A stretch of DNA of 64,000 nt from Candidatus Bathyarchaeota archaeon (GCA_026014585.1 JAOZIA010000022.1:310001-374000), one strand, 5' to 3'; positions 9,258 through 64,000 are shown, counted from the stretch's first letter. Notes: generated by a model from the letters alone, not told the origin. A program made the numbers and translations.

Positions 9258-10856
9258 TCAGGCGAGCTTTGCCTTAAAAAATTCATATCCTTTCTCAGAT
9301 ATCCAACCCGCATCCAGCAAACTATGTAATCCCCCAAGCATAACTGTACGATTATCAGGTACCGCCAAAAGATTTCCCTTCACCAATAAAGCCTCAAACC
9401 CCGCTACCTCAACCGCTATCGCCGCCTTAAGAAAACCATCATCTCTTAAACGTGGCGACAGCAAATCCCTGATTTTTGCCATACCCAATGCGCCTTTGAG
9501 TTTAGCAGAAAAATCCACACTACCAACTTTTGAAGGCGAAAAAACAGCTATCCGCTTTGACTTCTCACTCTGGTAGGTTGTTATGTAAAAGGGTAAGTAA
9601 TACAGTGTATCTGTCCAGTCCTCACCGCTTAAGCTAAAGTCAGCAAGTTTTGCAACTTCTTCGTCAACCTGCTTTGCAATTTCACCCAGCTCAAAAATCA
9701 TCGCTTTACTTGCATCATCAAGTGAACCTTTCTTAGCCTCAAAATGACCAAACTTGCTTTCACAAGCGCCTTGCAACTCGCGTACTGGTTTACGAATTAG
9801 GCTAATTTGATCTTCCACTTGAGTTTTTAGCTGAGTTATTTGTTGCGTTTTTTCTTCTTGAGTTGACTTTATTGTACGGTCAACTAACCAGAGTTTGCCA
9901 TCAGTTTCTTCTAGCTGATGTTTGGCTGTTTTGATTTTGTCTTTCCATTGTCGTTCAGATTTAAGATTCTTACGTTCAGCTTTGCTTCGGGCTGACTCAA
10001 ACCGTTTTATCTTTGCTTGCACGGTTAATTGTGCTTTTTTGAGTTTCGCCTTCTGCTTTTTTAGCTCATCCATCTTTTTCTTAAAACTATTTAACATAAT
10101 ATCTTCTTGTTTTTTGTGCTGTTTTTGGATGGTTTTGATTTTAGGCTTAGATAACTCTTCTAATGCTCGAATTTTAGCGTTACATTCATCCTTAATTGCG
10201 CCTGCTCCAAAATCCAATTCTTCCATAAACCCGCTTGTTAACTCATTAATTTTTTTAATGCACTCCTGGGTTTTGGATGCCTGCTCATAAAGAAATTTTT
10301 GCAGGTCAGTTATTTGCTTTATTGTTTGTGTTAGTGTAGCCTCTTTTTTGGGCAACAGTGTGAGGTGGGGTTCTTGGCGGAGTTCTTTTGCTTCTTTCAC
10401 ATATTGAGTAAACTCTTCAAGAAAAGTTTGATTTGCTATCAGACCATGGAAGCTGAATTGTTTTTCGTGCCTGTTTGTTCTGAAAAAATCTGCGTGCTCA
10501 AAAAGAAAAGCAATGTAAGTGTCAAGTAGGCTTTGGCGGGCTTGCAGTTTCTTCTCAAAAATTGTTACGTTAAAATCTTCAACAGTCACTTGGAAAGCCT
10601 TACTAGATAATCCATCTAAAACAAAACCAACCTTGTCAGTGACAAAAACCCTCAATGGGTACCCTACTTTGCAGATAGAAACATACTGTTCCGCGGGTTT
10701 GCCGATTAATCCTGCACCTGTTTCTCTCTCCATTTCGGAGAGTACATAAATCGTTGCTAATTCTTCCCCAAAACTGAAGGTTGCCCCGTTTTCCTTTTGA
10801 ATGGAACTGAACGGTAAAACAAACTGTTTGCCCGAAGTTGCTGTCATAACCCTCAT
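9258..10856 (-). CDS. Long coiled-coil protein of unknown function
   Basis: A 532-aa protein. Residues about 1-160 are a mixed alpha/beta region without a recognised motif. Residues about 175-390 form an extended Lys/Glu-rich coiled coil (for example KKQKAKLKKAQLTVQAKIKRFES). Residues about 405-530 make a compact C-terminal region (LYYLPFYITTYQSEKSKR, then a winged-helix-like tail). No signal peptide or membrane segment is seen, so it is cytoplasmic. The LPFYITTYQ...RIAVFSPSKV region resembles the end of nucleic-acid or ATP-linked structural proteins, but no family can be named. It may be structural or DNA-associated. Monocistronic. Confidence 0.7.
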   Translation of the reverse strand: MRVMTATSGKQFVLPFSSIQKENGATFSFGEELATIYVLSEMERETGAGLIGKPAEQYVSICKVGYPLRVFVTDKVGFVLDGLSSKAFQVTVEDFNVTIFEKKLQARQSLLDTYIAFLFEHADFFRTNRHEKQFSFHGLIANQTFLEEFTQYVKEAKELRQEPHLTLLPKKEATLTQTIKQITDLQKFLYEQASKTQECIKKINELTSGFMEELDFGAGAIKDECNAKIRALEELSKPKIKTIQKQHKKQEDIMLNSFKKKMDELKKQKAKLKKAQLTVQAKIKRFESARSKAERKNLKSERQWKDKIKTAKHQLEETDGKLWLVDRTIKSTQEEKTQQITQLKTQVEDQISLIRKPVRELQGACESKFGHFEAKKGSLDDASKAMIFELGEIAKQVDEEVAKLADFSLSGEDWTDTLYYLPFYITTYQSEKSKRIAVFSPSKVGSVDFSAKLKGALGMAKIRDLLSPRLRDDGFLKAAIAVEVAGFEALLVKGNLLAVPDNRTVMLGGLHSLLDAGWISEKGYEFFKAKLA

Positions 10857-10960
10857 TGTTGAATGGGGCTGTTTGCTTTTTATATTTACCGTTTAATTTG
10901 GAGTAACCTAAAGAAATCAAGCGTTTTTTTGCTATAACAAAGAACTCTCAAGTAGTCTTG

Positions 10961-11368
10961 TTAAGGATTGCAGGTGTAACAACGTTTTGTGTGCACACAA
11001 ATGACGCCACCACATTTGGGGCATTTCCATTGTTCTTTTTCACGTTTTAGAAAAGCATCCATGCCATATGTTTTGATGTATTGTTGGTTTTCGATGATGC
11101 TGACACCATATTTTTGGCTGTAGTACTGGTCGATTTTTTTGAGGTTTTCGCAGGGGAAGTCGGCGCATTGGTAGCAGTTTTGGATTTTGTTTTTCTGCTC
11201 TGGATGTTTGCAGTTGTTTTCAAAGAAGTTACAGGTGGCTTGTTGGGTTTGGCATCCGCCGCATGGAGTTTGCTTCTTGCCGGTAAGTGTGTAACCGAAG
11301 AAGCCCACGCATGTTCGGCAGTTAATTCCGCAATGGGCGAATAGTTTAGCAGTGAAATCTTGACTCAT
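10961..11368 (-). CDS. DUF3795-family cysteine-rich protein
   Basis: A 135-aa protein starting MSQDFTAKLFAHCGINCRTCVGF. The CGINCxxC pattern, the CGGC pair, CNFFENNC, CYQCADFPCENL and a C-terminal CPKCGG...CYTC ribbon match the DUF3795 family, a putative zinc-binding group of unknown role common in archaea and clostridia. A longer frame extends to 11473, but its first 35 residues are hydrophobic and look unrelated; the ATG at 11368 begins at the conserved domain. Confidence 0.8.
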   Translation of the reverse strand: MSQDFTAKLFAHCGINCRTCVGFFGYTLTGKKQTPCGGCQTQQATCNFFENNCKHPEQKNKIQNCYQCADFPCENLKKIDQYYSQKYGVSIIENQQYIKTYGMDAFLKREKEQWKCPKCGGVICVHTKRCYTCNP

Positions 11369-11484
11369 GCTTTCGCTTCCCAAGAATTTTGGTTGAATTG
11401 CGTATGATTGAATAGCAAAGGGAGCCGCTAGAAAATATAAAATCTTGCTTAACCAAAGTTGATAACACAGCAATAAAGTCCCGA

Positions 11485-12828
11485 CTACGTGAAAAAGTCG
11501 CTTATCCGCCGCTGGAAAAGTGCGCGTTTGAGCAGTTCACTTTGTATTATCCACCGTTTAAGAGGAATCTCAAACCTGCCCGCGATAAACTGCAATGATT
11601 GGGCTAAACTGTTGAAAAGATGCGGCTTCTGACGCATGGCATTACGAACATTCTCGCGAACCTGCCAAACCCCAATAGGCATAATATAGCCAGGTCTAGC
11701 CTCGCGCAACACAATCACCGTTGCCTGCCGACGCTCCTTGAGAAGCTGTTCGCAGGCCGCCAGCCGAGCGGAATAGTAGCAGCCGCCAATCGCAGCGTAT
11801 GTTGTTCTGCCGTCGTTGCCTTCCCAGTCACTAAAAATCGCCGTATTTGTGCCATGTGGGTTCCAAACCGTGCCCGGGTACCATGCTTCCATGGATTCAT
11901 AACTCCACTGCTGAGGAATCATCAAAATTTCAAACACATTATCCAAATAAAACGATTCATACACTCGCCATTCGTTGATTTCGGGAAAGGTTTTGACTTG
12001 TTTGGCAAGATTTTTAGAGACAATATCATCCACTGCCGTGATGCTCCAGCGCGTAGGCACCAACCGACGATTCTTCTCTACCCCAAAAGCGCCGACACTG
12101 AAGGCTTTCTGAATTTTTGATACAATCACGCCGCGGTCATAGAGTTCTAAAACAGCATTGGTTGCCCGCAAATCTGTGTCCCGGTACGCTTTTTCAACGT
12201 GCTGGTCAAAGCGGCTGTTGCCTACGTGTAAGTTGCGGATGGGTGCTGAGGGTCCAAATGGCTGCACGTTATCGTCCATGAAGATGGAGCCTTGGGGTTT
12301 TTTGGTGAGGTTAAGTTCGATGTCTACGCTATTGTCTGCCAGAGCGAGTTCGCGGGTGTTGTCGAGGATTTTGCCTGCCTCGTTGAATTTGGTTACATGA
12401 ACACGCTGTTTACCCCTTATCAGTAAACTTCGGAAGCCAACGATTTCATCGATGCTTTTTCCAAACCATTGTTCGGGCAAATCAAACATGCTGGTGTTTT
12501 CATAAACTGGCGGCACAAGTGGTCCCGCATACACGTAAGGGTAGCCGATTCTGCCGATGAAAACGCTTGGGGGTGAGGCACCGTCAATGTCTTGGGTTGC
12601 CATGAGGGGGACGCTTTTGAGGAAGCTGTTGGTTTTGACCATTATTGGGCAACGGGTTTTTCCACAAAGCATCTTGGAACCTTTGCAAATTACACAGAGG
12701 CTATCTTGTCGTGCTCGGGCGGTGATTTGGTTACTTTGTGTAGGGCTTGCGCTGCTTTTTAGGAGGTCTTTGAGCCAGTTTTCGGAGGCTTTCGCATTTG
12801 GAATAGTGGTTGGGTTATGTATCGCCAA
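11485..12828 (-). CDS. nreA: Nre-family archaeal DNA repair protein with PIP box
   Basis: A 447-aa protein of the Nre family (DUF650/DUF651), linked to DNA repair in haloarchaea and binding PCNA. An N-terminal zinc-finger-like CVICKGSKMLCGKTRCP sits near residue 45. Conserved blocks include FIGRIGYPYVYAGPL, VEIELN-type strands and the WEGNDGRTTYAAIGGCYYSAR segment. The last residues, QRRISDFFT, form a canonical PCNA-interacting peptide (QxxIxxFF). The upstream start is TTG at 12828, with no ATG before the zinc site, so the exact N-terminus is uncertain. The gene stands apart from a divergent secreted-protein gene. Confidence 0.9.
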   Translation of the reverse strand: MAIHNPTTIPNAKASENWLKDLLKSSASPTQSNQITARARQDSLCVICKGSKMLCGKTRCPIMVKTNSFLKSVPLMATQDIDGASPPSVFIGRIGYPYVYAGPLVPPVYENTSMFDLPEQWFGKSIDEIVGFRSLLIRGKQRVHVTKFNEAGKILDNTRELALADNSVDIELNLTKKPQGSIFMDDNVQPFGPSAPIRNLHVGNSRFDQHVEKAYRDTDLRATNAVLELYDRGVIVSKIQKAFSVGAFGVEKNRRLVPTRWSITAVDDIVSKNLAKQVKTFPEINEWRVYESFYLDNVFEILMIPQQWSYESMEAWYPGTVWNPHGTNTAIFSDWEGNDGRTTYAAIGGCYYSARLAACEQLLKERRQATVIVLREARPGYIMPIGVWQVRENVRNAMRQKPHLFNSLAQSLQFIAGRFEIPLKRWIIQSELLKRALFQRRISDFFT

Positions 12829-13033
12829 TGTTTTGATGGCTGTATCTTGCTGATATGTTTTCTGTTAATTTTGGCGGCAAAATTTGGTGCTGTTGGCGCA
12901 TGTTTTGGCTGGGTACTGTGTAATAATAAAGCGTTTTTTGGTATATCGGATTTGGTAGCATTCCAATCACCGAAATCTTGCTTATTAAGTTACAAGAAAC
13001 CATCTTCATTAAAACGTCAAGAAGGAAGAATCT

Positions 13034-14071
13034 TTGAACAAAAAAATAATCACCGCAATCACACTTATACTGATGATATGCGCAACCGCAATAGCTTCAG
13101 TCAGTGCAACCACAACTGTAAATGTCTACATATACAATCCTTTTGATGCAGGGAGCGAAGCTCAAGGCATCAACTGCAACGGTCACTGGGTCGGAGACAT
13201 ACCCATCGACATAATCAGTGGTGGCTCAACATTTCACACAAACAGTTACTGTATGGATTTTGACCGCGACCTCAACGTAGGCACAACCTACCAAGCCACC
13301 ATAACCTCTGCAGCCGACACTGCGGAGTGGCGGGCTGTTAGTTATGTTCTTTCATGGAATAGCCCAACCAACGATAACGAAGCCGCTGTTGTAGCAGTAG
13401 CAATATGGCGGCTCCTAAACCAGACCAGAGGAACAACCTATTTCCGTGAATCATGGCTTGACCAAAGCATCGACAGCGCAGGAAACGTGCTTTCAACTTT
13501 GGCTTATGGCAAAGATGTTGTGCGTCAAGGCGACCAACTCACTTGGACTTCACCAATAACCGGTAACATGTCCGCTGTAATGGCCGAGGCAGGTGAAACA
13601 GTCACGTTCCAAGCAAACCTTGCAAGCTCAACAGGAACACCACGCGCCAACGTCAAAGTCCTACTCAGCGCAACTCTAACTGTTGGAAGCACAATCACTG
13701 AACTAAACTCAACCTATGTTACGCCTTCTGAAATGTTCACAGACACTGCAGGAAACGTGCAGGTTGACGTACAGGTTCCGCCAGATACACCAAACGGCGC
13801 ATCCATCACGGTTAAGGCTCAAACCCAAAGTATATGGTCTCAAAGATACATCGACACAACAAACCCTGCAGTTCAAGACCTAATCGGCATCGGAGATAAC
13901 TTCCAACTAACCGTCTCAACAAACCTGTGCATCTTGGGAACTATCAACGTGCTACCTGAATCTCCCATAGGAACAATCATGGCAATCAGCGCGGCAGGTG
14001 TGGGCTTTGCAGTCTGGGTAAAGTTTAAACACCCCAAAAACTGGGCAAAAACTAACTCTTCACTTTCCTAA
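13034..14071 (+). CDS. Secreted surface protein, thioester-domain-like, C-terminal anchor
   Basis: A 345-aa exported protein. It has an N-terminal signal peptide (residues 1-25, ending ...ASVSA). Residues about 30-140 resemble a Cys-Gln thioester adhesin domain: NSYCMDFDRDLNVGTTYQ, then EAAVVAVAIWRLLN, where the family usually has a Gln just before AIW. An Ig-like domain follows (about 175-270, TVTFQANL...VQVDVQVPPDTPNGASITV). The C-terminus has LPESPIGTIMAISAAGVGFAVW plus a basic tail, similar to the other surface protein at 33891-35258. The TTG start follows AAGGAAG. The exact role is unknown; cell-surface location is clear. Confidence 0.7.
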   Translation: MNKKIITAITLILMICATAIASVSATTTVNVYIYNPFDAGSEAQGINCNGHWVGDIPIDIISGGSTFHTNSYCMDFDRDLNVGTTYQATITSAADTAEWRAVSYVLSWNSPTNDNEAAVVAVAIWRLLNQTRGTTYFRESWLDQSIDSAGNVLSTLAYGKDVVRQGDQLTWTSPITGNMSAVMAEAGETVTFQANLASSTGTPRANVKVLLSATLTVGSTITELNSTYVTPSEMFTDTAGNVQVDVQVPPDTPNGASITVKAQTQSIWSQRYIDTTNPAVQDLIGIGDNFQLTVSTNLCILGTINVLPESPIGTIMAISAAGVGFAVWVKFKHPKNWAKTNSSLS

Positions 14072-53217: not shown

Positions 53218-54033
53218 CTATGCCAGTTTTTTGTATATCAGTGTTAGTAAGAAGAACAGTACCAGAACAAAAACAATCAAGCCCGCTGTTACAATATCAA
53301 AAACTGCTGAGAAAATAATTCCCAAAACCGTGCTTGCAACACTAAAACCTACAGCGGCAAGAAGAGTTTTCTTAAACGAAAGATTCAGCTTTAATGCGGC
53401 AAGCCCTGGGAGCACAAGCAGTGCCACAACAAGGATGGTTCCGATGATTTTTATGGAGAGCACGATGGTTATGGCGACTAGTAGGTCAAATGCTATGGAT
53501 AATGGGCGGGTGGGTATGCCAATTATTCTTGAGTCCTCCTCGTCGAAAACCATGGATAATAGTTCTCTGCGTAAGAAAGTAACAAATAACAAAACTGATA
53601 AGCCCAACCCAGAAACCAAGGCTAAATCAACACGGTCAATAGTTAAAATGGAACCAAATAGGTAAGTGAATAATTCAATGTTAAATCCTCCAGCCAAACT
53701 AATAACGATTAAGCCAGTAGAGAAACCTATCGCCAGCATAACAGCTATGGCAGAGTCTGATGCCGCAATTTTTTTGCGTCGCATATACGAGATGCCCAAT
53801 ACTGCAAGCACTGAAACAACCAACGCTGCCACGAGGGGGTTAATGCCTAAGAAAAGCCCCAAGGCTATGCCACCAAATGCCGTGTGGGAAAGACCATCGC
53901 CTATCATAGCTTCTTTTTTAAGCACTAAAAAGAGCCCGATTACTGCGCAAGCAATTCCCGCGAGGATTCCGCCTATTATGGCGTATTGGAAGAATTGGTA
54001 ACCAAATAAATCGAAAATGTTGATGGCGCTCAT
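53218..54033 (-). CDS. Metal ABC transporter permease (ZnuB/MntB type)
   Basis: A 271-aa ABC-3 type permease with about eight helices: FFQYAIIGGILAGIACAVIGLFLVLKKEAMIGDGLSHTAFGGIALG (family signature) and DEEDSRIIGIPTRPLSIAFDLL. It overlaps the ATPase gene by 4 bases. With the ATPase and TroA-type binding protein it imports Zn2+, Mn2+ or a related ion. Confidence 0.93.
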   Translation of the reverse strand: MSAINIFDLFGYQFFQYAIIGGILAGIACAVIGLFLVLKKEAMIGDGLSHTAFGGIALGLFLGINPLVAALVVSVLAVLGISYMRRKKIAASDSAIAVMLAIGFSTGLIVISLAGGFNIELFTYLFGSILTIDRVDLALVSGLGLSVLLFVTFLRRELLSMVFDEEDSRIIGIPTRPLSIAFDLLVAITIVLSIKIIGTILVVALLVLPGLAALKLNLSFKKTLLAAVGFSVASTVLGIIFSAVFDIVTAGLIVFVLVLFFLLTLIYKKLA

Positions 54034-54809
54034 TTCTGGAAAACTCCGTGGCAGGTGTGTTTGTGGAATACGAAGTGGAAGTGTTCCCCGTAAGCCCGCT
54101 TAAGGAGTGTGTTGGGGTCTAATTCTTCTGTTATTTGGGCAACCTCTACTTTCTTGTTGATACAGAGCACTTTGGACATGCGACAGAAAACAGAGGCTAA
54201 ATCATGTGTTACAATCAAAATAGTGGTTTGCCGTTCCGTGTTTAAGTCGCTGAGTTTTTTAAAGAAACGTTCTTGAGCAGACGAATCCACACCCACTATG
54301 GGTTCATCTAAAAAAATCAGTTCAGGCTTACGCGCCAACGCCTTAGCCACGAACACCCGCTGCTTTTGTCCACCTGACAACTGCCCAATCCGCCGCTCCG
54401 CAACATCTTTTAAGCCCATAAAATCAATGCTTTCATCGACCGCTGCCCAGTCTTCCTTTTTGAAGCGTCGTCCAATATTGCCTTTTCTTATGCAACCCAA
54501 TGAAACAAGCTCTCTTACAGTGAGAGGAAACTGGTTTTCAAAGTTGGTGGCATGCTGTGAAATATACGCGATTTTTTGCCAAGAAGAAAACTTTGATAAC
54601 TCGGTGCCGAATAGACGAATTGAACCCTTATTGATGGGTATAAAATTTAGGATAGCGTTTAAAAGTGTGGTTTTTCCGCCACCGTTTGGTCCAACTACAC
54701 CTACATAATCACCCTTTTTAATCGAAAATGTTGCATCCTCGATTACAGTTGCCCCGTCACGGTTTACATTAAGATTGCTTACTTCTAAAATAGGGGAATA
54801 TTGTGGCAT
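54030..54809 (-). CDS. Metal ABC transporter ATPase (ZnuC type)
   Basis: A 259-aa ATPase: Walker A GPNGGGKTTLL, signature QLSGGQKQRVFVAKAL, Walker B LIFLDEPIVGVD, switch His in VTHDLASVF. A His-rich C-terminus (GEHFHFVFHKHTCHG) could sense or bind metal. Second gene of the importer operon, with a 55-base gap to the binding protein. Confidence 0.93.
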   Translation of the reverse strand: MPQYSPILEVSNLNVNRDGATVIEDATFSIKKGDYVGVVGPNGGGKTTLLNAILNFIPINKGSIRLFGTELSKFSSWQKIAYISQHATNFENQFPLTVRELVSLGCIRKGNIGRRFKKEDWAAVDESIDFMGLKDVAERRIGQLSGGQKQRVFVAKALARKPELIFLDEPIVGVDSSAQERFFKKLSDLNTERQTTILIVTHDLASVFCRMSKVLCINKKVEVAQITEELDPNTLLKRAYGEHFHFVFHKHTCHGVFQK

Positions 54810-54863
54810 AGTTACCTTTCCGCTCTTACCCTGTTAGCATTGCACTTAATTAACTAAGCGCCA

Positions 54864-55784
54864 TTAAGTTGCCCCTAAACCGGTCTGTAAATTGACAAGA
54901 TTTGCCTGCATTTGTTCTAGGTAGTTTAAGTTGTCAACAGGACCAAGCATTAGATACATTTTTAGCATTGTAACGTCTTCGCCAGTTTGTGCTTGAACTT
55001 CAGATTGGATTGTTTGAACATACTCACTTGAATAAACTGGGTCGAAGTAAATGACGTAAGTTTGATGTTCTTCCATTTGTTGAACGATGCTTGCTATAGT
55101 TACTGCGCTGGGTTGTTCGTCAGCAGATATTCCAATTACGCCGGTTTGAGTGAAATCATATCTTGAAGCGACGTATCCGAATGCTGCGTGAGAGACAAAA
55201 ATTTCTGTTTTAGTTTTGTTAGAAAGCCCATTAGCGTATTCAGAGTCTAACTGTTCAAGTTGACTTTTTAAACTATTCCAATTTTGGGTGTAGTAACTTT
55301 CATGTTCTGGATCAACGGTGACTAAAGCGTTGTAAATGTTTTCTGCTTCTTGTTTAGCCATATATGGGCTCAGCCAAGTGTGCGGGTCAGAATCACCGTT
55401 TTGTTTTGTGACTAATTCTATGCCTTCGGTGGTTACCACGATTGTACGATCATGACTAGTTGATAATGAGGGTATGATATCGTCTTCCATCCACTTGTTT
55501 GCGCCTGCACCATTGTAAATGATGATGTCAGCGTCTTCAGTAGAAACAATGTGCTCAGCTGAGGGTTCCCAACCGTGAAGTTCAGTATTGTTTGGAATTA
55601 ATTGGGTTACTTCTATGTGTTCACCGCCGATTTGTTGGGTGAGGTAGGTATAAGGATAGAATGTTGTTACGACTTGTAGTTTTGTTGATGCTTGTGGTGT
55701 ACTGATTGTGTAGGTAACTATTGAGATTGCTATTATGATGATAAGAATAATGCTTGTGAGGAAAATTTTTTGTTTGCTGTTCAT
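54864..55784 (-). CDS. Metal-binding periplasmic-type protein (TroA/ZnuA family)
   Basis: A 306-aa lipid- or membrane-anchored substrate-binding protein: an N-terminal helix (QKIFLTSIILIIIIAISIVTYTIS), LQVVTTFYPYTYLTQQIGG, an ELHGWEP His (ligand), DPHTWLSPYMAKQEAENI (second His), HAAFGYVASRYDFTQ and a final acidic ligand in IYFDPVYSSEYV. Captures Zn, Mn or possibly Ni outside the cell. The ATG at 55784 is preferred. Divergent from the NikR-like gene across palindromic DNA. Confidence 0.9.
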   Translation of the reverse strand: MNSKQKIFLTSIILIIIIAISIVTYTISTPQASTKLQVVTTFYPYTYLTQQIGGEHIEVTQLIPNNTELHGWEPSAEHIVSTEDADIIIYNGAGANKWMEDDIIPSLSTSHDRTIVVTTEGIELVTKQNGDSDPHTWLSPYMAKQEAENIYNALVTVDPEHESYYTQNWNSLKSQLEQLDSEYANGLSNKTKTEIFVSHAAFGYVASRYDFTQTGVIGISADEQPSAVTIASIVQQMEEHQTYVIYFDPVYSSEYVQTIQSEVQAQTGEDVTMLKMYLMLGPVDNLNYLEQMQANLVNLQTGLGAT

Positions 55785-55805
55785 GCTGTATGGTTGCAGC
55801 CAACA

Positions 55806-55878
55806 CATTATTAAACTTTTTTAAATTGTTAATAAAAAAATCGATTAAAAGTCAAAAAATTAATAAAACTTATTAAAC
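55806..55878. promoter_or_regulatory. Operator-like repeats between metal importer and NikR-like gene
   Basis: Two copies of TTATTAAAC (55808-55816, 55870-55878), one inverted copy GTTAATAA (55828-55835), and a perfect TTAATAA-AAC-TTATTAA palindrome (55860-55876) lie in the 126-base divergent region. These are strong candidates for binding by the NikR-like protein. Confidence 0.5.
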
Positions 55879-55910
55879 ATGCCCCACCCAAATAATAAAA
55901 GGGAGAAAAT

Positions 55911-56306
55911 ATGACAGTCATCAGCCTATCCATACCCGACACACTCATCCAACAAATCGACCAAGCCATCAAAGAAAAAGGCTTCGTAAGCCGCAGCGAA
56001 ATCGCACGCCAAGCCCTCAGACTATACCTAACCGACGACCCAAAAATCGAAAACCTCCAAGGCGAAACCGCAGCAACCATAACCATAATCTACCGAGAAA
56101 ACGCAGACAGACACCGACTCCTCGAAACACAACACGTCTACAGCGGATTAGTCTCCACATTCCTGCATGCACACGTCAACGAAGGCTACTGCCTAGAAGT
56201 CATAATACTCAAAGGACAAGCCTCACTGATAAGAAAATTCATAGACAAACTAAAACAAAACGAACAAATCATCCAAATCAAAATCTCCATCCTAAGTCAA
56301 AAATAA
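55911..56306 (+). CDS. NikR-like metal-responsive regulator
   Basis: A 131-aa RHH regulator: TVISLSIPDTLIQQIDQAIKEKGFVSRSEIARQALRLYL, then an ACT-type metal domain. The four NikR ligands keep exact spacing: QHVYSG His, then HAH 11 residues on, then Cys (HVNEGYC). It binds Ni(II) or a similar ion and probably represses the divergent TroA-type importer. The RHH residues differ from those of the first NikR at 8245-8652, so their operators likely differ. Confidence 0.88.
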   Translation: MTVISLSIPDTLIQQIDQAIKEKGFVSRSEIARQALRLYLTDDPKIENLQGETAATITIIYRENADRHRLLETQHVYSGLVSTFLHAHVNEGYCLEVIILKGQASLIRKFIDKLKQNEQIIQIKISILSQK

Positions 56307-57774: not shown

Positions 57775-58033
57775 AGGTTATTCCTGCGGGTAACTGCAAT
57801 CTTAAACGTTGCAGATTCATCAGTTAACTAATCGCTCAGTTATAAGCTTTAATTATTCCTAATCAAAAAAATGGCTCAACATTTGCTTCTCTGCCATTTA
57901 AACCCTGCAAACAAGTGAACACATCAGCCATTTATGGAGCAGTGAATGTCTGTAAGAAACTTGCGCTTGGTTGAAAACAGGTTTTTGCCCGTTTATGTTT
58001 TTATAGGAAGGCATTGAGTAAGACGCGATACTC
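57775..58033. promoter_or_regulatory. Divergent region before the SNF2 cassette
   Basis: No recognised gene. It holds TATA-like DNA (TTATAAGCTTTAATTATTCC, 57839-57858), a GGAGCAGTGA-led 23-codon frame at 57946-58017 and a TTTATAGGAAGG immediately before the TTG start (58034). The short frame may be a leader peptide but has no support beyond its ribosome site. Confidence 0.3.
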
Positions 58034-60031
58034 TTGCCTATTAAGACTAAATTCAGTTACAGCGGACTCCATCAACCCGATTCAGTTACTTCTAAATCGG
58101 AAGCTAAAGTTTGTGAAAAATTCGCAGCCATTCAAGCCATAGAATCATCCTCAATTAACTCGCCCCCGCCAAAGAAAAAAACCCGAAAAATCAAATCTAA
58201 AGGGCAACCCCCAAAACAAACCCGAAACTTCATGTTCGAAGAAGAAATAGGCGAAGCAAAAAAAATCAAACACAAATACTCCTGCACATTTTCTGACCCA
58301 CATAATATTAAAAAGTTAACGGAAACCAAGCGGTTTGCAAAATATGAAGCTTTCAAACTCAACATAGATGCAATAAAAATTAGGCAGTCACACCAAATCG
58401 ACAAGTTGGTTGCAGCTAATGTTTTGCAGTCAAAATTGGTTCCGTATGATTTTCAGATGGCTATTGCGCTTAAAGTAATTAATGAAATGAATGCAAACGC
58501 GATACTAGCCGATGAGGTTGGTTTGGGAAAAACCATTGAAGCAGGTTTAATCATGAAGGAACTGCTTTTGCGCGGGGAAATTGACTCTATTCTTATTGTT
58601 TCTCCAAAAAGCCTGCTGTCACAGTGGCAAGCTGAAATGTCCGAGAAATTCGGAGAAACCTTTGTTATCGCCAATAACCATAGAATTAATTTTAAAAAAG
58701 CTGACCGCGTAATCTGCTCCCATAACCTAATCTTCCGAAAATATGACGAACTATCAAGCAAAACTTGGGACTTAGTTGTTGTTGATGAGGCGCACGCGTT
58801 TAGGAACACTCACACTAAGAGCAGAGGAAGCTTAGCAAGTCTTCCAAAAAACCATTTCTTACTGCTCACTGCGACACCCATATGCAATAAATTAACCGAC
58901 CTCTACAGCGTCATGGATTTGATTGAACCAGGCGTTTTTGATAGCGAACGCTTGTTTATTTCCCGATTTGCTGATGATGCTAAGAACCGCGTTGTGCGAC
59001 CTGATGGTGCATATCAATTAAGGCAAACGCTACGGGGATTAATGTGCCGTACCAGAAGAGAACAAACAGGCATTCCCTTTACCAAAAGATATGTGGAATC
59101 AAGAACTCTTGAGCCTGAAGAGAGTGAAAGATTATTTTTTGATAAAGCAACAGAGTATCTACGTGACATTTACAATAACCGCTTCAAAACCATCGAAGCC
59201 CTAACAGCAGAAAATCCGAAACGAAAATTTAGTCCATTACAAAGCAACGCCATTTTGGTTTTTCAAGCAATCGCCCTGCAACAGTCATTTTCCAGTTCGC
59301 CTGAGGCAGCCATTCAATCCCTACAAAGAAGACAACAACGTTTCCCCTCTGAAATCAGGGCAACTAACGAATTAATAGCAATGGCGAAACAGGTAAAAAG
59401 CTCAAAAATTACGCTGCTAAAACAAATCCTAAAAGACCTCCCAGATGACCAAGCACTAATATTTTGTCTAAGACGAATCACCGCACAAACCCTAAAAAAC
59501 ATGCTAAATCAGGAGTTCGGAAAAGCAGACGTGTACTTGGGCAACATGAGTCAAAACGAGCGAGACAAAGTTATCGCGGACTTCAAATCTGGCAAAATCA
59601 AATACCTCATCGCGACGGACTCCGCAGCGGAAGGTCTTAACCTCCAAAATTGCCGTATAATGTTTAATTTTGATTTGCATTGGAACCCCATGAAAATTGA
59701 GCAACGCATCGGACGTATTCACCGCTACAAGCAAGACCGCGACGTCACAGTTTTTAACATAACCATCAAAGACACCATCGACGATTACGTCCTGCACATT
59801 CTCTACCAAAAAATCGACCTGTTCACCATGACCATTGGCAAGATGGAAACTGTGCTGGCAGAACTAAAAGAAGGCTCACAGGACATACAAAAGACAATAA
59901 TGAACATCCTGCTGCAGAGTGACTCGCGTCTAAATATACAAAAAGAACTGGAAAAACTTGCAGGCGATTTGACGGTTTCAAAGAAAAATCAGGAATTGGC
60001 AGAACAATTCACGCAGGGGGTTCTTGACTGA
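58034..60031 (+). CDS. SNF2-family ATPase/helicase (RapA/DrmD-like N-part)
   Basis: A 665-aa protein. Residues about 1-120 are a variable, Lys/Pro-rich lead. The core is an SNF2 ATPase: Walker A ILADEVGLGKTIEAGLIMKELL (about 155), motif Ia PKSLLSQW, DEAH-box VVVDEAHAFRNTHT (about 250), TATPICNKL, and motifs V/VI STDSAAEGLNLQNC-like and IEQRIGRIHRYKQDRDV (about 560). The QRIGRIHR order is that of RapA/DrmD-type remodellers. The RapA C-terminal region seems to be encoded by the next gene 11 bases on. The TTG start is in line with the whole operon. Confidence 0.85.
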   Translation: MPIKTKFSYSGLHQPDSVTSKSEAKVCEKFAAIQAIESSSINSPPPKKKTRKIKSKGQPPKQTRNFMFEEEIGEAKKIKHKYSCTFSDPHNIKKLTETKRFAKYEAFKLNIDAIKIRQSHQIDKLVAANVLQSKLVPYDFQMAIALKVINEMNANAILADEVGLGKTIEAGLIMKELLLRGEIDSILIVSPKSLLSQWQAEMSEKFGETFVIANNHRINFKKADRVICSHNLIFRKYDELSSKTWDLVVVDEAHAFRNTHTKSRGSLASLPKNHFLLLTATPICNKLTDLYSVMDLIEPGVFDSERLFISRFADDAKNRVVRPDGAYQLRQTLRGLMCRTRREQTGIPFTKRYVESRTLEPEESERLFFDKATEYLRDIYNNRFKTIEALTAENPKRKFSPLQSNAILVFQAIALQQSFSSSPEAAIQSLQRRQQRFPSEIRATNELIAMAKQVKSSKITLLKQILKDLPDDQALIFCLRRITAQTLKNMLNQEFGKADVYLGNMSQNERDKVIADFKSGKIKYLIATDSAAEGLNLQNCRIMFNFDLHWNPMKIEQRIGRIHRYKQDRDVTVFNITIKDTIDDYVLHILYQKIDLFTMTIGKMETVLAELKEGSQDIQKTIMNILLQSDSRLNIQKELEKLAGDLTVSKKNQELAEQFTQGVLD

Positions 60032-60042
60032 GCGAAAACCTT

Positions 60043-61377
60043 GTGCAGTTCATAAAAGCCTACGTCAAAACCAAGAACGCCACATTAACTGAGCAGTCCT
60101 CACCCAAAGTTTTCACCGTCAAGTACCCTGAACAAGAAAACCCCATAGAATACACGTATGACCCAGCAGTGGCAAGAGAAAAAAATTCTCTGTTTTTGGC
60201 ACCGGGAAGCCCAGTGTTTCAGCAGATACTTCGGGAATGCTTAGAAAAAGGCATAGCAAGCCAAATCAGCATAAAACCCAAAGGCACCTATGAAGCCACA
60301 ATAAAACGGCACTTTAAAGAGCCAAACTTTGACTGCCCAGACTGCAGCAAGATAACCACAGAAAAAGAAAAAATTGCAGTATGCCAAAAACCTCAACCGT
60401 GCCATCATCAAATAAACAATGCAAAAATCGAAACCGTAAACATTACCAAAAAAGAGCCACTTAGACTATTTCAATTCTATTATTTAGCAATCTTTCAAAA
60501 CAAGCTACGTGCCCGAAATGAAGAACTAATCACAATAACAGTAAACGAAAAAGGCGAGGTCATCGAGGAAGTTAATGAAGACCTTCTTGAAGAGGACACA
60601 GTTGAGGTTTCAGATCATAAGTCAAAGCTTAAACCGGGCGTTTTTGAGGAACTCAAAGCAGTTGCAGATAAAACCTTAGAGCAACTTCTTAGGGAAAAGG
60701 TTGCTCTTTTTGATTTACCGCTCATCCGAGAAAAAAAGTCTAAACTAAAAAGTTTTGACAAACGAATCAGACGCGCACGTCTTGAGCAATTAATCCAAAA
60801 CAAAGCCGACATTGACATGCAAACGTGGCAAACCAACTATCAAGCCCTAATGGACAGAGAAGAAGAAGCCTTAACAACTCACATAACAGTGAAACTGGTT
60901 AATCTGCTGATAATTAACACCTCCAAAATCACCGCCAAAATAAACCTTAACAACAAAGCATCCATCACCGCCTCAATCACTTTTGGCATCAATATTCTTC
61001 CCGAAGTCACATGTCCAATCTGTAAAACCTCCCTCATGGAAGGCTACGCAACACAAGACAACCTCTACGTCTGCAAAAACTGCATTCACCAATCCATTGA
61101 CACAGGCAAAATTTACTCCAAGAAAGCAGCTTTAAAAATAGATGAAACCCTAAAAGAGTACATCGAACAAAACGAAGGATTTGTCTGTTCGGTTTGCGGA
61201 AAAAGACATAGCAAACTCTTAGAGTTCAAATGTAGCCACGATAACTCCAGCGTATGCATCTTTCACTATGACCTCTGCGATGTATGCGGAAGGGTTGTTT
61301 CAAAAGCTAACCTCAAACACAACGAGGACTTCACAAGAAAATTATGCCCTAAACACGCCCACGCAAAGAAAAACTAG
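60043..61377 (+). CDS. Zinc-finger protein resembling the RapA C-terminal region
   Basis: A 444-aa protein. The first part (EYTYDPAVAREKNSLFLAPGSPVFQQILRECLEKG, about 35-70) resembles the RapA-type segment after the helicase, in which YxFD...hPlv motifs occur. CPDCSKITTEKEKIAVCQKPQPCHH is a candidate zinc site. A charged helix (about 220-270) precedes a C-terminal double zinc region (CPICKTSL...CKNC; CSVCGKRHSK, CIFHYDLCDVCGR and CPKH). GTG start. With the ATPase it may form the two halves of one remodeller. Confidence 0.65.
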   Translation: MQFIKAYVKTKNATLTEQSSPKVFTVKYPEQENPIEYTYDPAVAREKNSLFLAPGSPVFQQILRECLEKGIASQISIKPKGTYEATIKRHFKEPNFDCPDCSKITTEKEKIAVCQKPQPCHHQINNAKIETVNITKKEPLRLFQFYYLAIFQNKLRARNEELITITVNEKGEVIEEVNEDLLEEDTVEVSDHKSKLKPGVFEELKAVADKTLEQLLREKVALFDLPLIREKKSKLKSFDKRIRRARLEQLIQNKADIDMQTWQTNYQALMDREEEALTTHITVKLVNLLIINTSKITAKINLNNKASITASITFGINILPEVTCPICKTSLMEGYATQDNLYVCKNCIHQSIDTGKIYSKKAALKIDETLKEYIEQNEGFVCSVCGKRHSKLLEFKCSHDNSSVCIFHYDLCDVCGRVVSKANLKHNEDFTRKLCPKHAHAKKN

Positions 61378-61388
61378 GAGCAAACAAT

Positions 61389-62303
61389 TTGCACGATAAA
61401 TTTAATGGAATCTTAAAAGAAATACGTGACCAACCCGCCAGTGATGTTTCAGCGTTTTTAGAGGATAAACTACAAATTCCACCTGACAAAGCAGAAGAAT
61501 TAGCCGCCAGAATAAAAAAACACCACATACAACAGGCAGAAAAACAAGACGTAACACGAACAGTTATAGAAAAACCTGACAAAACAACACCAGCCACAAC
61601 AAGCATCTATTCAACGGACAAGCTTTCTGTCAGAGAATTTTCCTATTTCATCAAATGGTTACTGACCGAATTAGGATACACCATTGAATCCGAAATTCAG
61701 GTTGCCGATTATGGTCTTGATATGATAGTCACCAGAGGCGATGAAAAAACTGCGGTTTTAGCCAGAAAGTATCCGCGAAATTATGAGGTATCAGAGACGA
61801 TTATGATGTTATCTGAGCAGGCAAAACAGGATTATGCTTGCAAAAAAGCAGTCATTATTGCAACCACAGTTTTTAGCTCACAGGCAATAGCAGACGCCCA
61901 GAAATGTGGTGTTGAACTTTGGGACCAAACCACGATAGATACACAAATTAAAGCAGTTAGAGAAAAAGTTGAATCTGAGCAGTACACGCGTTTTCCAGAG
62001 TTTTCAGGTTCACTTCTGGAGTGGCTTTTAAAGCTTGATGAAAGTGAGCATTTCATTGTAGAACCCCGCGCCTCTGGAAAGTATGATTTGCACCTGCCCG
62101 AAGTCAAATTTCCACTTCTAACATTCCAAGCCCAAAAAGACACAGTTACACAATGTGTGTATAGAATAAAAGACAACAGACCCATGGGAGAAAACGAGGG
62201 CACCGTGCTAATCGGCACGGATAATGACGGCAACAGAGTTGGACCAGAGGATGCGGAAGCTTACGAGCTGATAACTCGGTATCTTGAAGACTTCCTGAAC
62301 TAA
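61389..62303 (+). CDS. Mrr-like restriction-endonuclease-fold protein
   Basis: A 304-aa protein. An N-terminal helical region (residues 1-75) precedes an Mrr-type domain: REFSYFIKWLLTELGYTIESEIQVADYGLDMIVTRGDEKTAVLARKYP, then KKAVIIATTVFSSQAIADAQKCGVELWD. In active Mrr enzymes the strand reads (E/Q)-A-K; here it is L-A-R with Lys next, so the catalytic site looks changed. The C-terminal SLLEWLLKLDESEHFI... and NEGTVLIGTDNDGNRVGPEDAEAY end is not recognised. TTG start, 11 bases after the zinc gene. Confidence 0.7.
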   Translation: MHDKFNGILKEIRDQPASDVSAFLEDKLQIPPDKAEELAARIKKHHIQQAEKQDVTRTVIEKPDKTTPATTSIYSTDKLSVREFSYFIKWLLTELGYTIESEIQVADYGLDMIVTRGDEKTAVLARKYPRNYEVSETIMMLSEQAKQDYACKKAVIIATTVFSSQAIADAQKCGVELWDQTTIDTQIKAVREKVESEQYTRFPEFSGSLLEWLLKLDESEHFIVEPRASGKYDLHLPEVKFPLLTFQAQKDTVTQCVYRIKDNRPMGENEGTVLIGTDNDGNRVGPEDAEAYELITRYLEDFLN

Positions 62304-62948: not shown

Positions 62949-63701
62949 TTATATGGGTATAACTATGGGTATCCCTCGCACGGTTTCTACATACGCATCA
63001 ATGTTGTATACTGCTTTGATGTTTTCAGGGGTGATGATTTCGTGTCCTCCCACGGCGTAAACCATTCCATCCTTCATAAGGATGAACTTGTCTGAATGAC
63101 GAATAGCCAAGTTGAGGTCATGAATAATCATTATCGCAACCATATGATTTTTCTTAACAAGATTTCTGATTAGGTGCATAATGAGGTGTTGGTTGGATAG
63201 GTCAAGGCTGCTTGTGGGTTCATCCAAAAGAATCACCTTTGGCTGCTGAACCACAACCCGCGCTATCTGCACCAACTGATATTCGCCGCCGCTAATTTCA
63301 TCAACATACTTCAATGCTAACTCATCCAAACCCAGCAAATGAAGCACACGCCCAGTCAAACGAATATCCTTTGCGGTAACATCCCATTCAAAATGCGGTT
63401 TTCTACCCAAAAGCACCGAGTCAAACACGGTCGTTCGGGAGGTCTCGCTTTTTTGTGATACGTACCCGATTTTTTTGGCGATGTCTTTTTTGCTCATTTT
63501 GTAAAGGTCTGAGCCTTCAATAAATACTGAACCAGCATTTGGCGTGAGCACCTTGCTTATACATTTGATGAGGGTGGTTTTTCCGACACCGTTGGGTCCC
63601 AAAATGGAGATGACATCGTCCTCTTTCACTGAGAAAGACACGCCATCTAGCACTTTTCTGCTGCGGTATGAGAAATTGATGCCCTTAACTTCAAAGAACA
63701 T
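62949..63701 (-). CDS. FecE/BtuD-type ABC transporter ATPase
   Basis: A 250-aa importer ATPase: Walker A GPNGVGKTTLIKC, signature ISGGEYQLVQIARVVV, Walker B VILLDEPTSSLDLSN, switch His in MIIHDLNLAI. The family imports iron-siderophore, heme or cobalamin. The ATG at 63701 overlaps the permease TGA (TGATG) and follows AGGAGG, so the pair is translationally coupled. Confidence 0.93.
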   Translation of the reverse strand: MFFEVKGINFSYRSRKVLDGVSFSVKEDDVISILGPNGVGKTTLIKCISKVLTPNAGSVFIEGSDLYKMSKKDIAKKIGYVSQKSETSRTTVFDSVLLGRKPHFEWDVTAKDIRLTGRVLHLLGLDELALKYVDEISGGEYQLVQIARVVVQQPKVILLDEPTSSLDLSNQHLIMHLIRNLVKKNHMVAIMIIHDLNLAIRHSDKFILMKDGMVYAVGGHEIITPENIKAVYNIDAYVETVRGIPIVIPI

Positions 63702-64000
63702 CACTTTCGATACCTCCTAATCAGCAAGTAAATGAATAGTGGTCCTCCAAGCATTGAGGTGATGATGCCCACAGGTATAACTGAGGGGTAAAGGATAACC
63801 TGCCCAATCCCGTCCGCGATAATTAGGATAATGGCGCCAAGGACTATGGAGAGGGGAATAAGGTAACGGTGGTCACTGCCGATAATCATTCGGGCAATAT
63901 GTGGCCCCAAAAGACCAATAAAGGCGATGATACCGAAAAAGGAAACGATAAATGCGGACAGAACAGAGGACAAGACCATGCCAATGATTCTCTCGCGTTC
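63701..64000 (-). CDS. FecCD-family ABC permease, partial
   Basis: The C-terminal 99 residues of a FecCD/BtuC-type permease: FFGIIAFIGLLGPHIARMIIGSDHRYLIPLSIVLGAIILIIAD and PVGIITSMLGGPLFIYLLIRRYRK are the diagnostic end. The gene continues past the window edge. It pairs with the ATPase downstream; the binding protein would be expected beyond the edge. Confidence 0.92.
   Translation of the reverse strand, partial: ERERIIGMVLSSVLSAFIVSFFGIIAFIGLLGPHIARMIIGSDHRYLIPLSIVLGAIILIIADGIGQVILYPSVIPVGIITSMLGGPLFIYLLIRRYRK

Follow-up and report, generated by a model that had tools for sequence, protein, structure and literature searches.

Several described systems are built around an SNF2-family motor of the kind considered here. 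RapA is an RNA polymerase-associated SNF2 ATPase (PDB 6bog, 8t0l), and in the C-terminal half of RapA and BrxHII a degenerate REase-like domain precedes a unique alpha/beta domain into which a coiled coil is inserted (PMC12839542). BR helicases combine an SNF2 motor, an inactive REase, the alpha/beta domain and an active REase, and the helicase of Type-1 BR systems usually has the nuclease on its own chain (PMC12839542). In DISARM the helicase that is split is another one, DrmA/DrmB (PMC12458937), and Zorya type I contains ZorD, an SNF2 helicase with an Mrr-like nuclease. We analyzed a three-gene cassette in a 64,000-nucleotide stretch of DNA (the window) from a Candidatus Bathyarchaeota archaeon of the genus Candidatus Bathycorpusculum. 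The best explanation, to which we assign a rough probability of 0.55, is that genes A and B are a split form of a RapA/BrxHII-type SNF2 motor and that gene C encodes an Mrr-fold partner, the whole being derived from defence and retained in this genus.

The three open reading frames lie on the same strand (Table 1), at the coordinates proposed in an earlier sequence-only reading apart from the start of the second gene. Genes resembling metal transporters (a zinc/manganese-type ABC permease, ATPase and binding protein, and a NikR regulator) occupy window positions 53218-56306, and iron/cobalamin-type ABC transporter-like genes lie on the other side of the cassette at 62949-64000. The TTTATA element preceding gene A would be compatible with a leaderless operon promoter. 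Judged by its sequence, gene A is an intact and complete SNF2 motor: Pfam identifies SNF2-rel_dom (E 3.5e-35) and Helicase_C (E 2.5e-27), and the Walker A (core DEVGLGKT), DEAH and QRIGRIHR motifs reported earlier are all present. The RapA model NF003426 aligns residues 98-618 to RapA positions 117-644 of 959 (E 3.6e-52), with a score of 177.7 bits that falls under a cut-off of 576 set for the whole RapA protein. As the match stops at position 644, gene A ends where the RapA C-terminal region starts; that region is missing from the motor chain and its fold sits in a separate gene. The Tudor N-terminal domain of RapA is also absent, residues 1-97 having no Pfam match. RapA is among the best structural matches of gene A, the DrmD and DpdE models outscore the RapA model, and the BrxH and HmaA models also score well, the HmaA match being confined to the motor. 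In the comparison with DISARM (DrmD) and ARMADA (ArmA), the highest motor scores come from the DrmD models, at 237.6 bits against a cut-off of 950 and 233.6 against 610, and the proposed DrmD-like character therefore extends no further than the shared motor. DrmA, DrmB, DrmC and a methylase were absent from the three nearest window neighbours (Pfam) and from the 25 of 41 families listed for the 109 flanking proteins of relatives (PADLOC).

Table 1. Features of the cassette, in window coordinates.
Feature	Position	Strand	Description
TATA-box-like TTTATA	58000..58005	+	About 30 bases before the gene A TTG; seen in the window sequence
Gene A (c0)	58034..60031	+	SNF2-family ATPase, 665 aa; motor without RapA C-terminal region
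Walker A region ADEVGLGKTIEAG	58508..58546	+	Gene A residues 159-171; invariant in 21 relatives
DEAH box	58784..58795	+	Gene A residues 251-254; invariant in 21 relatives
Motif VI QRIGRIHR	59702..59725	+	Gene A residues 557-564; invariant in 21 relatives
A/B overlap CTGA	60028..60031	+	4 nt; gene B start codon overlaps gene A TGA stop
Gene B (c1)	60028..61377	+	449 aa; putative detached RapA-type C-terminal region plus zinc sites
Gene B N-terminal alpha-beta-beta-beta-alpha-beta region	60031..60318	+	Residues 2-97; AlphaFold secondary structure
Gene B first Cys/His cluster	60334..60408	+	C103 C106 C119 C125 H127; from alignment
Gene B beta-sheet domain	60427..60981	+	Interrupted by a long coiled coil (60634-60870)
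Gene B C-terminal zinc modules	61012..61356	+	Three Cys/His groups, invariant in 26 sequences
Gene C (c2)	61389..62303	+	Probable Mrr-fold pseudo-nuclease, 304 aa; small helical N-terminal region
Gene C Mrr_cat domain	61617..61937	+	Site D111, L124 (E/Q expected), R126 (K expected)
Gene C C-terminal region			Conserved; family unknown

The junction between genes A and B is fixed. In 26 of 26 intact loci the start codon of gene B (TTG in 22, CTG in 4) overlaps the stop of gene A by 4 nt and places gene B in the -1 frame, and in 24 of them no other ATG, GTG or TTG occurs within the next 13 codons. Frame and spacing at the B/C junction vary freely among relatives and provide an internal control. 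Given this constancy, the separation of genes A and B by 11 bases in the sequence-only reading is a start-codon misassignment, gene B beginning at the CTG at 60028 and not at the GTG at 60043. The accompanying claim that all three genes have non-ATG starts needs the same revision for gene B, and the window's codons for genes A and C, although read correctly, are not conserved, many relatives having ATG. One further locus (G088:C22:8643-9948; L048 / L069) has a gene B that is frameshifted or affected by an assembly error, with genes A and C open. In archaea, overlapping gene pairs of this type are translated by termination-reinitiation, and their products are often subunits of heteromeric complexes (PMC6728339, PMC10666635). 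The overlap of genes A and B would fit translational coupling of this kind. The invariable -1 frame could also be taken as a sign that A and B form a single protein through a programmed -1 frameshift, which we consider highly improbable: gene B's frame opens only at the overlap in 11 of the 26 loci, a stop lying directly before it, so slippage would be confined to the last codons, where no classical slippery heptamer is evident, and TTG/CTG reinitiation accounts for the fixed overlap.

Gene B matched no Pfam family above cut-off, and its relationship to RapA was sought in structure. An AlphaFold model built from 23 sequences has moderate confidence (pLDDT 73.7, pTM 0.55). When it was compared with the PDB using Foldseek, the only matches below E 0.05 were four RapA structures (best 6bog, E 3.2e-6, probability 1.00, 329 columns), and the fifth match (E 0.055) was RapA again. 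The whole-chain TM-score is low (0.22), as expected when a flexible multi-domain region is modelled with moderate confidence, and the match to RapA is thus specific rather than precise; both the model confidence and this score count against the split-RapA reading. The order of the modelled elements (E134-158, E161-173, H203-258, H264-281, E285-307, E312-318) agrees with the C-terminal half of RapA/BrxHII (PMC12839542), residues 2-97 probably being equivalent to the degenerate REase-like domain described there, and the zinc modules would be additions. In the first Cys/His cluster, where AlphaFold confidence is low, C103, C106, C119 and H127 are invariant and C125 is conserved in at least 90% of sequences; the C-terminal modules comprise C329 C332 C349 C352, then C387 C390 C402 C410 H413, and C417 C420 C440 H443. 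Weak PDB matches to TRIM zinc proteins (E 0.01) were rejected as chance or generic zinc similarity. Scores stayed below significance (5.7-11.6%) when gene B was compared by profile with the C-termini of fused Hma-like helicases from the same archaeal family, the alignment being limited to a G-H/S-P motif, and the cyanobacterial partner genes described below gave no sequence signal against the gene B profile, which also weighs against the split-RapA reading. The link between gene B and RapA is consequently drawn from structure together with the archaeal split partners. The outcome named in advance as speaking against a split RapA-like chain with a zinc-bearing second half was a middle protein without structural resemblance to the C-terminus of RapA; the AlphaFold and Foldseek results, with the conserved Cys/His clusters, leave that proposal standing.

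Gene C has an Mrr fold, as had been suggested, and appears to have lost the activity that the name implies. Pfam assigns an Mrr domain (PF04471, E 5.7e-13) and the inactive-REase model PF22722 also matches, while the AlphaFold model (pLDDT 84.7) has an Mrr-like core for which Foldseek returned AF1548, AspBHI and MspJI. The catalytic D-(E/Q)xK residues occur together in 0 of 27 gene C members, the lysine being replaced by arginine in 20. Estimates of dN/dS (0.05-0.08 for gene A, 0.10-0.15 for gene B and 0.14-0.19 for gene C) indicate purifying selection on all three genes. Selection on gene C despite the lost residues suggests that it is kept for something beyond standard cleavage, and in Candidatus Bathycorpusculum it is probably a pseudo-nuclease that binds DNA or has a regulatory role. 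The Mrr_cat fold and the PF22722 match are common to Mrr-type IV restriction enzymes and NA-iREase1 inactive REases; gene C differs from the former in lacking catalytic residues and in always accompanying a split SNF2 motor. A distinct Mrr-family paralogue is encoded outside the window (G000:C21:287715-288551; L170:4716-5552); it is about 280 aa long and its E-x-K site is intact, and proteins similar to it are widespread in Bathyarchaeia.

Read in line, genes A, B and C give the same domain order as BrxHII and the BR/Hma helicases (DUF499-centred, BREX-related; PMC12839542), that is, SNF2, degenerate REase-like domain, alpha/beta domain with coiled coil and C-terminal REase fold. The cassette differs from these in being divided over three genes, in its dead nuclease fold of the Mrr kind, and in the lack of an accompanying DUF499 ATPase or methylase in the genus; no DUF1156-type methylase is present in the cassette. 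It resembles RapA in the motor of gene A and the fold of gene B, and departs from it in being archaeal, in having two genes in place of one chain, in the missing Tudor domain, in the added zinc modules and in the Mrr-fold partner. Zorya type I also combines SNF2 with an Mrr fold, and gene C matches the nuclease end of ZorD; in the cassette, however, the gene for a RapA-type partner separates the motor gene from the Mrr-fold gene, and neither ZorA nor ZorB was found among the 25 of 41 flanking families listed. The cassette is therefore not RapA, DISARM, BR/Hma or Zorya, nor a functional Mrr restriction enzyme, in agreement with the initial impression that it fits no named system. We found no description of the split arrangement in the literature searched, which comprised open-licence papers only and in which absence is not proof.

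Relatives of the arrangement exist outside the genus. The best relatives of gene A in a tblastn search of plasmids were short SNF2 proteins of about 570-600 aa from haloarchaea and cyanobacteria, and in every case in which the downstream sequence was read, a partner was the following gene on the same strand. Cyanobacterial partners are about 350 aa long; one haloarchaeal group has partners of about 390 aa, and another has partners of 676 to about 1240 aa that carry long zinc arrays. On haloarchaeal plasmids and in other Thermoproteota, archaeal partners immediately follow short SNF2 genes, and a profile of 15 of them matched gene B (probability 98.4, E 4.7e-15, 385 columns), control profiles that were reversed or column-shuffled reaching at most 0.6%. 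One haloarchaeal A-B group often stands beside genes for a DUF499 ATPase and/or DUF1156 methylase, which form the BR/Hma set. The order A-B-Mrr was observed in Halorhabdus, Haloferax and Halocatena, all of the zinc-array group, and in a second Thermoproteota genome (G414); Pfam detects Mrr_cat in Halorhabdus, Halocatena and G414, the last two of which retain the D-(E/Q)xK residues. No Mrr-fold gene was seen downstream of the other haloarchaeal or cyanobacterial pairs read. The window's cassette belongs to this family by its arrangement, a gene B homologue directly following a short SNF2 gene with an Mrr-fold gene downstream in 27 of 27 carriers. The split motors may form one clade, since a tree with a single clade of split forms was not rejected (p-AU 0.499), long branches being a caveat. 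Three haloarchaeal partners (L189:9728-13015, L193:about 9700-13459 and L202:8735-10765), annotated as hypothetical or not listed, have very long arrays of short Cys/His repeats of about 20 residues each. In G414 a DUF2130 protein is encoded directly upstream of the split SNF2 gene (L195:8974-10269).

The occurrence of the same arrangement on haloarchaeal plasmids suggests that the cassette is probably a defence-type machine taken over by one archaeal genus. It also raises the alternative of a plasmid-derived competition or stability system, directed by one mobile element against another and stranded on the chromosome. The Nostoc pair lies beside ParAB and RelE/ParE genes, the Oscillatoria pair beside relaxase genes and the Halorientalis marina pair near ParA and Orc1 genes, yet the operon is chromosomal with a vertical tree and no recent mobility, and the cyanobacterial partners have no shown homology to gene B, which makes this origin distinctly improbable. 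A direct search recovered no gene B relatives from viral contigs or plasmids, and gene A relatives in viral contigs reached only 29-30% identity.

In 257 genomes of the class, a search with gene B identified 27 carriers, 26 of them among the 32 genomes of the window's genus and the remaining one from a different genus of that family. When 398 genomes of the phylum were searched with a profile, only the window's genus was recovered. A single-sequence gene B search of genome contigs gave no match and an alignment query returned 23 named loci; gene A at high identity (61-72%) was restricted to the same carrier genomes. All 27 carriers have the gene order A-B-C, which is more than chance. The operon trees share splits with an rpoB tree of the same genomes (14/20 for A, 11/19 for B and 11/20 for C, compared with at most 3 in shuffles), and operon and rpoB distances correlate (r 0.64-0.71). 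The operon is thus near-core in Candidatus Bathycorpusculum (26/32), vertically inherited and outside defence islands, mostly among housekeeping genes that differ among lineages. PADLOC gave only scattered defence-model matches among the 109 flanking proteins of relatives (25 of 41 families listed), and DUF499 occurs in 2 of the 32 genus genomes, the window's genome not among them. The sole carrier outside the genus (G129:C8; L035 / L052) has a gene A that falls inside the genus clade, which suggests transfer or a misbinned contig, and its gene B is extended at the C-terminus by an additional Cys-rich stretch.

Presence and absence change four times on the rpoB tree, best read as about four losses. 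One genome without the operon, G083, keeps a scar (L169:1146-1370 on the minus strand and upstream; G083:C101) in which a degraded gene A start leads into the final 60 residues of gene C within a 74-aa ORF, as a large internal deletion would leave. The genes evolve faster than rpoB, by 4.6x for A, 6.9x for B and 9.8x for C. About four losses, one of them scarred, together with these rates fit a dispensable conflict-type system.

The same distribution bears on two housekeeping alternatives. An archaeal counterpart of RapA would free stalled or post-termination RNA polymerase, and contacts to polymerase or DNA would be made by its zinc modules and dead Mrr fold. Gene B has RapA as its sole structural match and gene A has it among its best, and such a role would suit near-core vertical inheritance, housekeeping neighbours and the absence of an active nuclease. 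We nevertheless regard it as unlikely, as the Tudor domain is missing (the match beginning at RapA position 117), DrmD and DpdE outscore RapA on gene A with BrxH and HmaA also scoring well, and the operon has been lost about four times, is absent from nearly all other Bathyarchaeia and has relatives on plasmids. A remodeller for DNA repair or chromosome maintenance, in which the pseudo-nuclease recognises damaged or structured DNA, is less probable still. An SNF2 motor with an Mrr fold under purifying selection would serve such a function, and the operon adjoins genes resembling UvrA and UvrC (Pfam matches) in two genomes related to each other, L040 and L045, but that neighbourhood is not general, loss is recurrent and the closest relatives are on mobile elements. 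Between defence and repair, ancestry of the defence type appears the better supported.

Against defence as such stand the near-core, vertical occurrence of the operon away from defence islands, the lost nuclease residues and the lack of an accompanying methylase or DUF499 ATPase. The sequence-only reading had held that homologues found consistently as separate genes in housekeeping contexts would tell against it; such contexts are the rule within the genus, where inheritance is vertical, and not outside it, where relatives are on plasmids and often beside DUF499/DUF1156 genes. For the lineage as a whole, we consider an origin in a defence module directed against foreign DNA or viruses most likely. 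Near-core vertical inheritance, repeated loss, a dead nuclease, the missing methylase and the rarity of DUF499 suggest that its present role may have shifted from defence, with RNA polymerase recycling and repair as live alternatives.

For the split defence-derived motor we infer complex formation, translocation, the role of gene C, the target and defence as the function, as follows. The overlapping genes A and B would be translated in coupled fashion, and their products would assemble into one unit equivalent to the single long chain of a RapA/BR-type helicase. A would hydrolyse ATP and move along double-stranded DNA, while B, with its degenerate nuclease-like domain, coiled-coil arm and zinc modules, would select target and partners. 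C would dock on the A-B unit in the position of the C-terminal nuclease of BR-type helicases, acting as an intact nuclease in some relatives and as a pseudo-nuclease in Candidatus Bathycorpusculum, where the defence module would have become a vertically inherited, dispensable chromosomal operon. Tentatively, the cassette may represent a so far undescribed archaeal system of three components, directed against viruses or plasmids, with two coupled RapA-type subunits, a zinc-array sensor and an exchangeable Mrr-fold partner that is active or a pseudo-nuclease according to lineage.

The helicase architecture of RapA, BrxHII and BR, common to a transcription factor and several defence systems, would therefore also exist in split and modular form across archaea. 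The natural division into two subunits offers a direct route to the role of the little-understood C-terminal half of RapA-type proteins, and concrete targets are available on haloarchaeal plasmids, where an annotated 'SNF2-related protein' has a 'hypothetical protein' after it. In Candidatus Bathycorpusculum, a likely defence machine appears to have become bound to the lineage, as a near-core operon whose nuclease is dead.
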